Shown: one piece after another, positions 28,258-32,772 of the stretch
Numbering within the stretch: the first letter of the stretch is position 1
How the letters are laid out: every line of letters begins with the position of its first letter
Source: a virus
Length of the DNA stretch: 32,772 bases
Direction: 5' to 3' (one strand)
IMG/VR virus record: IMGVR_UViG_3300030331_003145
Coordinates: 1 to 32,772 of that record
Translations under genes and position numbers: made by a program
Notes under the pieces: generated by a model
The model's database searches: none
What the model was told of the DNA's origin: nothing
What the model saw: only the letters and a program-made list of their open reading frames with translations

Positions 28258-28412
28258 TGCCAGGTAAAAAAGGATTATACGCAAATATACATGCTAAGAG
28301 AAAGCGTATTAAGAAAGGCTCTGGAGAGAAAATGAGAAAGCCTGGCAGTAAGGGTGCGCCTACTGCCAAGGCATTTAAGAAGTCTAAGAAGACAGCTAAG
28401 AAAAAATACTAA
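28257..28412 (+). CDS. Small basic protein, 51 aa
   Basis: MPGKKGLYANIHAKRKRIKKGSGEKMRKPG... to ...KKTAKKKY. Very basic and probably unfolded or DNA-bound. LYANIHAKRKRI and SGEKMRKPGSKGAPTA are patterns I associate with short proteins of marine phages. Its stop TAA (28410-28412) overlaps the stop of the convergent gene on the other strand (28411-28409). Confidence 0.65.
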   Translation: MPGKKGLYANIHAKRKRIKKGSGEKMRKPGSKGAPTAKAFKKSKKTAKKKY

Positions 28413-29026
28413 CCTGGTAGTTCTTCGCGACAGGTCATGCCCATACCCAAATAGAAACGCAATGCTCTGGCTACTGCTCTGGTTTCAGCCATTCGAATAT
28501 AAGATGGGACCATCATCTTAGAAACATTTTGTGGGCTTGCATCTCCATGTCCGTTGTAAGTACCTCTTGGTCCCTTGACGGTAGCTATAAATACTGCTGT
28601 TTGCTTCTCTGTATTTAGGACTATGCTATCAGTCTCTATTGATTCAAGCCCATTCAAATGAGCTAAGTGAAGTAGACCAGAAAACAATACATAGTTTTTA
28701 CCCTTTAGGTTGACGATGAAGCCTTGGCTTTTCATCATTTGGATCAGGTTTTCTTCTTCATCTTTTTGTTTGGTCATTGGTTCTTTCTTTCTATGGTCTT
28801 CGATGGTAGCACTTGGAAAGTATGTATCTATTAATGCATCCAGTTCAGCTGCTCTGTCTGCTTTGACATACCATATCTTCTTTTCTTTGTGGAATTGTGC
28901 ATCTAAGTTTGCTTTGATATCGTCTTGAAAATGAGGATGGAAACCACCATCGACATAGATATGTCCGTTTACTTCTGCGATCTTAACGATGCGATCTGTC
29001 TTATTCATAGTAGGCTGCATGGTCAT
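28409..29026 (-). CDS. Putative recombination protein (HARP-like N-terminus, annealing-protein-like C-terminus), 205 aa
   Basis: ATG 29026 follows GAAGGAAC; it overlaps the preceding 103-aa gene by 26 nt. Residues 10-67 show a pattern like HARP-type annealing modules: an I-x-V start, FHPHFQDDIKAN, then KKIWYVKADRAAELDALID. The C-terminal part (about 95-205) contains GLLHLAHLNGLESIET, GHGDASPQNVSKMM, then MAETRAVARALRFYLGMGM, resembling the end of Rad52/Erf-like single-strand annealing proteins. It ends the leftward replication unit next to loader- and initiator-like genes. Function is inference; both parts need profile checks. Confidence 0.5.
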   Translation of the reverse strand: MTMQPTMNKTDRIVKIAEVNGHIYVDGGFHPHFQDDIKANLDAQFHKEKKIWYVKADRAAELDALIDTYFPSATIEDHRKKEPMTKQKDEEENLIQMMKSQGFIVNLKGKNYVLFSGLLHLAHLNGLESIETDSIVLNTEKQTAVFIATVKGPRGTYNGHGDASPQNVSKMMVPSYIRMAETRAVARALRFYLGMGMTCREELPG

Positions 29027-29312
29027 AGTATTGTTCCTTCAAGTATGTGTATATGTTTATCTCATGGCCCATTAGTAGGTTTGGAGAATGAATGATTAGG
29101 CCAGGATCATCCATACCCAGTTGATTAGTTATATCCTCCCATATTGGATGTGTTTCTTGAAAGAACACCATATGTGGGGAGTTAGTACCAAACGGTACAA
29201 GCATTAGATATATGATACCGTCTACATTATGGGCTCCTGCAATAGTCGAGAGATTATTTTTCTGTAGGGGTTGACCCCGTGGAATTGAATCAGCTCCTGG
29301 TTCTGTTGCCAT
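29001..29312 (-). CDS. Hypothetical protein, 103 aa (overlaps loader-like gene by 91 nt)
   Basis: ATG 29312 has a strong GGAGGAGAC immediately upstream, inside the end of the loader-like gene (29222-29839), so the long overlap looks real. A later in-frame ATG at 29204 lacks a ribosome site. The product begins MATEPGADSIPRGQ, has a hydrophobic stretch (IIYLMLVPFG, about 33-42), and ends with several Tyr. No family recognised. Lies in the replication unit between loader-like and annealing-protein-like genes. Confidence 0.6.
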   Translation of the reverse strand: MATEPGADSIPRGQPLQKNNLSTIAGAHNVDGIIYLMLVPFGTNSPHMVFFQETHPIWEDITNQLGMDDPGLIIHSPNLLMGHEINIYTYLKEQYYDHAAYYE

Positions 29313-29839
29313 GTCTCCTCCAATGTAGACTCTTGTGATGTTAATGGCTTTCCATCTCCATTGATATAATAATATCTAATGCGGTTATGTCTCGCCATTG
29401 CATTATCCAAATTGTTTACAATGGTTTCTATCGTCGTTTCTTTCTTAGCCTTTCCCAAATCACAAGAGCATGCACATGTAAAGTGATAACAGAATGGTTG
29501 ACCATAATGACGACCAAATGATTTAGGCGCTTCATTGTAGTGAATGGCAATCCATCTCATTCCATGCTGGTTACAGTCATTGCATTTGTTGTATGACTTG
29601 ATACCTACGCTTCCGTTGTTCTCTGCCAATACATAATCCCTAACGACTCCCAATGGTGGGATGAATGAAGCAGTAGATTCTCTCATTAGTCTGCGAATGG
29701 CTCCAGATAAAACCTTGTCTGGTGTTTGTGCAAACTCATAAAGCCATAAAGGTAACAGCTTGTTTACATGCTCCTGGCCACGTCCCCAATTGGTTACAAA
29801 CTCACGAAGACTTTCTTCTATTGTCATTGGATGAGCCAT
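29222..29839 (-). CDS. Helicase-loader-like protein with Cys cluster (putative), 205 aa
   Basis: The ATG overlaps the O-like stop (TAATG) after AGGAG. N-terminal region (residues 1-75) resembles phage helicase-loader/G39P-type helical domains: WLYEFAQTPDKVLSGAIRRLMRESTASFIPPLGVVRDYV. It is followed by CNDC (86/89) and a Cys-rich end (FCYHFTCACSC, 116-126), a probable zinc site. In lambda the loader gene P follows O in the same way. The family match is by pattern and context only; it lacks an AAA+ Walker motif. Confidence 0.5.
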   Translation of the reverse strand: MAHPMTIEESLREFVTNWGRGQEHVNKLLPLWLYEFAQTPDKVLSGAIRRLMRESTASFIPPLGVVRDYVLAENNGSVGIKSYNKCNDCNQHGMRWIAIHYNEAPKSFGRHYGQPFCYHFTCACSCDLGKAKKETTIETIVNNLDNAMARHNRIRYYYINGDGKPLTSQESTLEETWQQNQELIQFHGVNPYRKIISRLLQEPIM

Positions 29840-30705
29840 TAGTAATCTCCTGCTGGTCTATACTCTCCACCATACTTGGGCAAGAGATACCCATTTGGGC
29901 CATATCGCCAATCACTTAGGGCATCATATGCCTTGTCAATGAAAGACCTGTTATCGTCCTGATTTGGGGCGTTTACGGATTCGCTCCAATCTTGTGCTTT
30001 CTCATGGTTACCATCTATCTTCTCCAGGTTCATGAAGTTTTTGCAATACTGGTAGCCGTTCTCTCTTTGCCATTTGTAATCTTCGCTTTCCATTGCCCAG
30101 GATACAATCAGCTTTAGCTCATCTACTGTGTAGTTATTCTTTAATGCTGTTCTGATAACCCTTGCACATTCTCCATTAACCGTTCTTGTCTTTTCATTGA
30201 ATGAATACCAATGATTCCATACTTCACCAACCCGCTTGGTAACCAGTTCTGGCTTGCATCTTTTTCCTAATGGTTTTTTTGTATAATTAATTATATCTTT
30301 ACTCTTACTCTTACTCTTTAGTATTATGTTGTCTGACTCCTGGCCGTTCACTGGCTGATTACTGGCCGATTGCTGGTCGGTTTCAACTATTGAAAGACGT
30401 ACTGGTCCCTTGCTCCTGGCCGATTGCTGGACGTTCACTGGCCGTTCACTGGCTGACTCCTGGCCGATTAATTTTTGGCTTTCTTCGAGTATCTTTCTGG
30501 CCTTATGTCTGCTTATTTTACATGCTCTTGAAATGACCCTAATGCTTAGTGTCTTGCCTTGTCTTAGCTGCGTTATGGTCCAGTAAAAGCACTCAATATC
30601 AGATGCTTGTCTTTCCATATCTATAAATGTATATCGTAGACCCTGGGGTATTGGTGTAAATAATCCGTTCAACTTGATAGTCCTTTGTTTGTGTGATACG
30701 TACAT
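29839..30705 (-). CDS. Replication initiator candidate, lambda O-like arrangement, 288 aa
   Basis: Residues 30-75 form a winged-helix-like unit (YWTITQLRQGKTLSIRVISRACKISRHKARKIL). Residues 80-125 are a linker encoded by the iteron arrays (Gln/Ser/Ala/Val-rich, with QSA and PVN repeats). Residues 158-232 resemble the C-terminal domain of phage replication proteins (VWNHWYSFNEKTRTVNG; IRTALKNNYTVDELKLIVSWAM). ATG 30705 has AAGGAA 12 nt upstream; a TTG in frame at codon 12 has AAAGGAC 8 nt upstream and may be the real start. It lies after the hairpin at 30736 and before the loader-like gene, so it probably opens the origin within its own gene. Confidence 0.6.
   Translation of the reverse strand: MYVSHKQRTIKLNGLFTPIPQGLRYTFIDMERQASDIECFYWTITQLRQGKTLSIRVISRACKISRHKARKILEESQKLIGQESASERPVNVQQSARSKGPVRLSIVETDQQSASNQPVNGQESDNIILKSKSKSKDIINYTKKPLGKRCKPELVTKRVGEVWNHWYSFNEKTRTVNGECARVIRTALKNNYTVDELKLIVSWAMESEDYKWQRENGYQYCKNFMNLEKIDGNHEKAQDWSESVNAPNQDDNRSFIDKAYDALSDWRYGPNGYLLPKYGGEYRPAGDY
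30271..30330. other. AT-rich stretch next to iterons; candidate DNA-unwinding element
   Basis: About 60 bp within the O-like gene, almost all A/T apart from single C and G bases, with a T7 run, TATAATTAATTATAT (30282-30296) and three tandem ACTCTT 6-mers (30301-30318). It adjoins the first iteron array. This is where lambda ori has its AT-rich unwinding region relative to its iterons. The reading frame passes through (encoding the SKSKSK segment). Confidence 0.55.
30329..30470. repeat. Two arrays of 11-bp iterons; probable replication origin core
   Basis: Consensus CTGGCCGNTTN. Array A: CTGGCCGTTCA (30340), CTGGCTGATTA (30351), CTGGCCGATTG (30362), CTGGTCGGTTT (30373), preceded by a degenerate copy at 30329. 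Array B: starts at 30416, 30427, 30438, 30449 and 30460. Within arrays the starts are exactly 11 bp apart; the arrays are separated by a 32-bp gap containing an out-of-phase CTGGTCC at 30402. Eleven is not a multiple of three and the repeats sit in a coding region, so the DNA itself appears selected. They lie inside the initiator candidate, as lambda's iterons lie in O. Confidence 0.75.
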
Positions 30706-30735: not shown

Positions 30736-30779
30736 AAAGGGTAGGACATTAGCCGAGCAGCCATGTCCTACCCTTTTTT
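30736..30779 (+). terminator. Strong 14-bp hairpin with T-run; bidirectional terminator candidate
   Basis: AAAGGGTAGGACAT (30736-30749) pairs perfectly with ATGTCCTACCCTTT (30763-30776) around a 13-nt loop. On the plus strand it is followed by more T residues (30774-30779 are all T), a textbook intrinsic terminator. Yet the genes here run leftward. On the minus strand it follows the ribbon-helix-helix stop codon and has only TTT after the stem, so it may attenuate leftward transcription into the O-like gene while fully stopping rightward read-through. Confidence 0.75.
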
Positions 30780-32044: not shown

Positions 32045-32497
32045 TCAACGCCCAAATGAATGAATAGTTTCTATCTGTCTTAGCTCATCATTGGTTAAGG
32101 CTATGCCTTGTCTGTGCTTGGTCACTACAGATTCAACCCGTCTTATTCCAGATGCTACCGTTGACCAGTTGCGACCAAAAAAACGACCCATCTCTGTTAA
32201 CTGTATCCTATCTTCGTGCAGCTTCATTAGATACCATGCCGTTTGCCTTGCTCTGCTAACCCTATGGTCTTTGCCTTGACGTTCAAACATGTATGTAGGA
32301 ACCTTGAACCTATCAGCGCAATGATTGACAATGCAATGAATGAATCGTCTGAATGGATGCTGATCTATTGGTATGATTTTATTCTCGGCTATGCGTTTCT
32401 GTCTTGGACTAAGTAACTTTCTAAGCTTTTCTATCTCTGCTTGCTGCCTAATGACTTTTAAATCTAACTCGTTTATTTTTTTGATATAAGGGTTCAT
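32045..32497 (-). CDS. DnaA domain IV protein without ATPase, 150 aa
   Basis: Residues 10-30 are a probable coiled coil. Residues 47-150 match DnaA domain IV: RVSRARQTAWYLM (79-91) corresponds to the DnaA helix with the minor-groove Arg, and TEMGRFFGRNWSTVASGIRRVE (101-122) to the signature helix. In E. coli DnaA the DNA-reading motif is DHTTV; here it is NWSTV (110-114), changed at the base-contacting positions. There is no AAA+ domain. It may bind a phage sequence and act in replication or transcription. Start ATG 32497 lies 2 nt after the junction gene's stop. Confidence 0.75.
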   Translation of the reverse strand: MNPYIKKINELDLKVIRQQAEIEKLRKLLSPRQKRIAENKIIPIDQHPFRRFIHCIVNHCADRFKVPTYMFERQGKDHRVSRARQTAWYLMKLHEDRIQLTEMGRFFGRNWSTVASGIRRVESVVTKHRQGIALTNDELRQIETIHSFGR

Positions 32498-32499
32498 TG

Positions 32500-32772
32500 T
32501 TATATCCTTTTCGATTCATCAAAAGCATTTGCAACAAGCCAATCAACATGATCTTTTACCGCCTGCGGAATGATATCGTTTTCTATTTCATCCCATGTGG
32601 TCGGCTCAATTACATGGTTCGCCATCTCCGATAGTGCATGTGCATGGTCCCAATCTGGAGGACAGTTAGCCGTATGTTTGTTGACATGCCTTCTTGGTGG
32701 CTCTAACCCTTGGTCGCAGATAGATTGTTCAGCTATCTCATGAAGGTCTCCTATCTCATAGACTCCATCTGT
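32500..32772 (-). CDS. Partial copy of the 135-aa junction gene (5' end missing)
   Basis: This is the second copy of the same gene as at 1-407, entering the window from its right edge. The stop TAA is at 32502-32500, two nt before the DnaA-domain start. Compared with the left copy it has two silent differences, Thr ACA to ACC and Pro CCC to CCG (bases 32599 and 32602). Confidence 0.75.
   Translation of the reverse strand, partial: TDGVYEIGDLHEIAEQSICDQGLEPPRRHVNKHTANCPPDWDHAHALSEMANHVIEPTTWDEIENDIIPQAVKDHVDWLVANAFDESKRI
32501..32772. repeat. Terminal redundancy of the contig, right copy
   Basis: Matches 1-272 except two bases. See the left copy; together they close a 32500-bp circle. Confidence 0.9.

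Follow-up and report, generated by a model that had tools for sequence, protein, structure and literature searches.

A candidate replication origin of 11-bp iterons inside the initiator-like gene of an uncultivated tailed phage

Introduction

The locus described here raises the question of whether an array of short tandem repeats, lying midway along an initiator-like gene, is the replication origin of an uncultivated phage. In lambda and the Stx phages, the gene that contains the iterons encodes the protein that binds them, O, and an AT-rich tract lies alongside (PMC7466680). The O-like gene 18 of the P22-like Salmonella phage L contains imprecise 11-bp repeats, which its authors propose as the origin (PMC8022706). 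A sequence-only reading of the present DNA had suggested a lambda-style origin of this kind, followed by a loader-like gene. We followed up this suggestion computationally in the whole stretch of 32,772 nucleotides (hereafter the window), which is the entire IMG/VR virus record.

Results

The two ends of the record (1-272 and 32501-32772) share an overlap of 272 bp that is inexact at two mismatched positions, and the genes from the two ends of the window are contiguous in relative G001. On these grounds the window is probably a near-complete or complete genome of ~32.5 kb. It belongs to a small tailed phage and carries terminase, portal and major head genes, and its early gene block, on the minus strand, contains the initiator-like gene. 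No integrase or cI-like repressor was found among the proteins scanned, which is consistent with the earlier impression that no lysogeny genes are visible, but this is weak evidence because most of the genes have no family match. GC skew, suggested earlier as a check, was uninformative on the origin since it follows gene orientation.

The initiator-like gene (29839-30705, minus strand) encodes a protein of 288 aa, and the repeats fall in the middle of it, as had been described. Nine 11-bp units are present, their CTGG starts on the plus strand being at 30340, 30351, 30362, 30373, 30416, 30427, 30438, 30449 and 30460. In gene orientation, array 1 (30415-30469, minus strand) comes first, with five units like AATCGGCCAGG; a 43-bp step from its last unit, across an inter-array spacer (30383-30414, minus strand), leads to the first of the four units of array 2 (30339-30382, minus strand). 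The nine iterons and the exact period of 11 within each array bear out the sequence-only reading, but the exact phasing that it also assumed between the arrays does not hold, since a step of 43 bp falls one base short of four 11-bp periods. In gene orientation, array 2 is followed on its 3' side by an AT-rich block (30271-30329; 80% AT), a candidate unwinding element. The block contains the triple repeat noticed earlier, AAGAGT in gene orientation (ACTCTT on the plus strand; 30301-30318), and a perfect 14-bp palindrome, TATAATTAATTATA (30282-30295), which can be read directly in the sequence.

The period is not a codon multiple, as already noticed, and successive 11-nt units fall in all three reading frames. 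When codons were reshuffled synonymously, with the protein kept, the 11-bp periodicity was reached in only 2 of 20,000 reshuffles (p about 1e-4). Under the same null the repeat region was expected to hold 3.7 core matches on average, with a maximum of 9, and 10 were observed. Isolated consensus sites, allowing one mismatch, were not enriched across the whole window (12 found against 9.5 expected). The repeat signal is a clustered, phased array and not a matter of isolated sites.

Conservation was compared in three sequences from one lineage, namely the window and two relatives whose proteins share 90% and 87% amino acid identity with that of the window. Both relatives retain the arrays, and the C-N-N-CCA core (C at -3 plus CCA) is invariant in all 27 units of the three sequences. 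Variable columns numbered 0 of 36 in the core and 20 of 63 elsewhere; the resulting p=4e-5, with codon position kept, is optimistic since the core positions were named after the alignment had been seen. Relative to the window, pN was 0.11-0.20 in the arrays, 0.04-0.05 in the N-terminal part and 0.03-0.05 in the C-terminal part of the gene. A 45-nt stretch (30386-30430), covering most of the inter-array spacer, and 37 nt of the AT-rich block (30281-30317) are invariant in the three sequences, and few synonymous differences from the window were seen in the block and the spacer. As the core stays constant while the peptide encoded there diverges more quickly than the remainder of the protein, the constraint acts on the DNA. 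Such a pattern would be expected if protein bound an array within a linker that tolerates change, and the homologue alignment proposed by the sequence-only reading shows the repeats persisting in both relatives, with the encoded peptide giving way to them.

The 288-aa protein can be divided into HTH-like helices (residues 36-85), an iteron-encoded linker (about 79-125) and a C-terminal part resembling replication initiation proteins. The helices come from an AlphaFold model of low confidence (mean pLDDT 39), and the presumed DNA-binding part gave no match among known DNA-binding families. The C-terminal part matches the replication initiation protein family phrog_16167 (E=2.5e-4), which is also matched by both relatives and is the only family with support. 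By hhalign it also aligns (E=4e-6, probability 87) with the initiator of Vibrio phage 24E30.2, itself a clear phrog_16167 member. Neither the window protein nor its two relatives matched the lambda O families (Phage_rep_O PF04492, phrog_277 and relatives) in Pfam or PHROGs. Searches against solved structures gave nothing useful, no relatives of the protein were found in bacterial genomes, and searches with neighbouring genes reached only two other contigs extending into the initiator. Just upstream of the gene we also observed a perfect 14-bp inverted repeat (30736-30776; RNA fold -29.5 kcal/mol, z=-5.75), which we read as a terminator or leader hairpin because a T-run follows it on the plus strand; in relative L004 both arms are altered and most of the pairing is retained.

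The next gene (29222-29839, minus strand; 205 aa) has a start codon that shares 1 nt with the stop codon of the initiator gene (TAATG). Its product has several conserved Cys residues and a low-confidence AlphaFold model (mean pLDDT 43). It matched neither P (PF06992, phrog_109) nor any other loader family, and only a short FIP..G stretch aligns with true P. The loader-like identity given to it earlier is accordingly unconfirmed, and a putative helicase loader is possible from gene position. The same early block encodes a protein (32045-32497) with DnaA domain IV (Bac_DnaA_C, PF08299, E=6e-11). Also near the initiator is another 205-aa gene (28409-29026) with a conserved RMAETRAVARALR stretch, which gave only a weak match to a family of unknown function; from this motif we presume that its product may be a single-strand annealing protein.

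The window shares with lambda O and ori-lambda the mid-gene iterons, the AT-rich region on their 3' side and a next gene that overlaps the end of the initiator. The two differ in that the iterons of lambda number four, each about 19 bp long and spaced at steps of 20-24 bp, whereas the window has nine of 11 bp in two arrays and of unrelated sequence; unlike in lambda, the 288-aa protein has no O-family match and the next gene no P match. Vibrio phage 24E30.2 resembles the window in the related C-terminal part and in its mid-gene iterons, although these are of 21 bp and unrelated in sequence; the gene after its initiator is a true Phage_lambda_P gene (E=5.5e-27). The exact 21-bp tandem iterons of this phage (L072:2909-2979) lie in an initiator gene that is unannotated, and its P gene is annotated as hypothetical. 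In phage L gene 18 the unit is TGTCCAACGGA, in six copies as against nine in the window, and a DnaB-type helicase gene (12) stands where the loader would be.

A DNA pattern based on the core matched 60 viral loci, many of them simple repeats. Several lay in the middle of ORFs that match DnaD-like or replication-initiation families, and these ORFs served as protein queries to collect further initiator genes by similarity, in order to lessen the bias of motif selection. Among the resulting 34 groups of DnaD-like/O-like initiator genes (<60% N-terminal identity), 11 bp was the strongest repeat period in 28, in the same linker, and 23 exceeded their own synonymous null at p<0.01 (median start nt 338); some selection bias remains in these counts, since the starting proteins had themselves been found through the motif. 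In a set of 478 control ORFs, a comparable lag-11 signal came from the window gene and its two relatives, and from ORFs at motif-selected loci. The consensus of the class is about [TC]GAACA[AG]C[AC]A[AG], to which the window unit fits only modestly (score 5.4 on the gene strand, 3.4 in reverse; permutation p=0.044), and the window gene has the class trait of an 11-bp tandem period in its linker-coding part. The iterons are shorter than those of lambda and unrelated to them, as first stated, with the correction that they fall in a widespread 11-bp class of phage initiators.

DnaD-like/replisome-organiser genes of this class (phrog_2514, phrog_186; for example L103, L126 and Lactobacillus phage BH1) carry 11-bp direct repeats in the linker that comes behind the N-terminal domain; A-rich repeats come next, and the arrays usually form one block as against two in the window. 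By hhalign, only the iteron-encoded peptide of the window protein aligns with the DnaD-like proteins, and as the window profile consists of three close sequences a distant homology is possible. An apparent extra copy was seen 66-67 bp upstream in DnaD-like genes, which may reflect an encoded NNK motif. Our literature search found no paper naming the 11-bp class, and an earlier description is possible.

The exact layout of five units, a 43-bp step and four units recurs in the GC-rich phage initiators L081/L082/L092 (near-identical to one another), L125 and L132. Like the window, L081, L125 and L132 have this layout mid-gene, with C-N-[GA]-CCAG cores. These loci were found by motif, in a first scan that fixed neither spacer nor copy number. 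The proteins of these loci are related among themselves (41% between L081 and L132), the L081, L125 and L132 initiators have no family match, and no relation of these proteins to the window protein was detected outside the iteron-encoded peptide. This raises the idea that initiators without detectable homology have in common an 11-bp origin module, down to the precise 5 + 43 bp + 4 arrangement. The array of sites would then be better conserved than its cognate protein, or would have been passed between unrelated initiators. We hold this only tentatively and think it rather doubtful, and with two lineages only, coincidence or very distant homology is possible. In a Paenibacillus genome (L269:4516-4673), a frame of about 170 codons contains two 11-bp arrays of the GGCCAG type, one with seven units and one with four, at a distance of 44 bp; in the gap analysis this was the only genome locus resembling the two-array layout among the matches listed. 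Another locus (L106:6821-7234) is a 138-codon frame made largely of GGCCAG-type 11-bp units at 11/22/33-bp steps.

Discussion

Taken on its sequence features, the segment 30271-30470 is very probably the replication origin of this phage, embedded in its own initiator gene. The candidate draws on a periodicity that beats the synonymous-codon null, together with a core that is invariant although the array peptide changes faster than the remaining protein; on the similarity of the C-terminal part to phrog_16167, whose Vibrio member has both mid-gene iterons and a real P gene; and on the recurrence of 11-bp arrays at the same linker position in most of the divergent DnaD-like/O-like genes. The published cases point the same way: phage L gene 18 (PMC8022706), and lambda and the Stx phages with their O-binding iterons and AT-rich tract (PMC7466680). 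Of the lambda-style origin first proposed, the array, the AT-rich element and the persistence of the repeats have stood, and the P-like loader has not. The origin is of a known kind, represented by lambda and, for 11-bp units, by phage L, here with a divergent initiator.

We envisage that the N-terminal HTH-like part of the 288-aa protein would bind the 11-bp iterons, at about one molecule per helical turn, so that five plus four molecules would line up head-to-tail along roughly the same face of the DNA. The initiator-iteron complex might then destabilise the adjoining AT-rich block, and the C-terminal part could recruit a DnaB-type host helicase, perhaps via the translationally coupled next gene.

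The array could in principle be an origin that is recognised by another protein, either the DnaA-domain-IV protein encoded at 32045-32497 or a host factor, with the 288-aa protein acting later, for example in helicase recruitment. The presence of a Bac_DnaA_C domain in the same early block speaks for this, but DnaA boxes are not enriched in the window (3 found against 6.2 expected) and the iterons are unlike them. Many other phages, moreover, have 11-bp arrays in their initiator genes, and the iterons of lambda and Stx phages are bound by the product of the gene containing them (PMC7466680), so that we consider recognition by such a protein very unlikely.

Still less likely is that the repeats are only a low-complexity protein linker, rich in Q/S/A/P/N, with no role as DNA. 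The linker that they encode is indeed repetitive, and repeated peptides are a common feature of linkers of this type; we nevertheless rejected this explanation, given that the unit is read in all three frames, that the synonymous null is exceeded and that the DNA core is conserved within a fast-changing peptide. A regulatory site for the initiator, acting in autorepression or copy-control with the true origin elsewhere, is the least probable of the alternatives. Plasmid iteron arrays can also serve control, which lends this some force. An origin accounts better for the mid-gene position, for the adjoining AT-rich block and for the repeated occurrence of such arrays in initiator genes, and promoter-like sites in the region were not above chance.

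An origin in 30271-30470 would provide a compact candidate for an uncultivated phage group, and raises the question of how an initiator assembles at one molecule per helical turn. Its signature, an 11-bp period in the initiator linker beside A/T-rich repeats, could serve to locate origins in many phages for which no origin is annotated. Beyond this single case, what matters is the apparent commonness of 11-bp arrays in phage initiator genes, and a two-array layout that is perhaps shared beyond protein homology.
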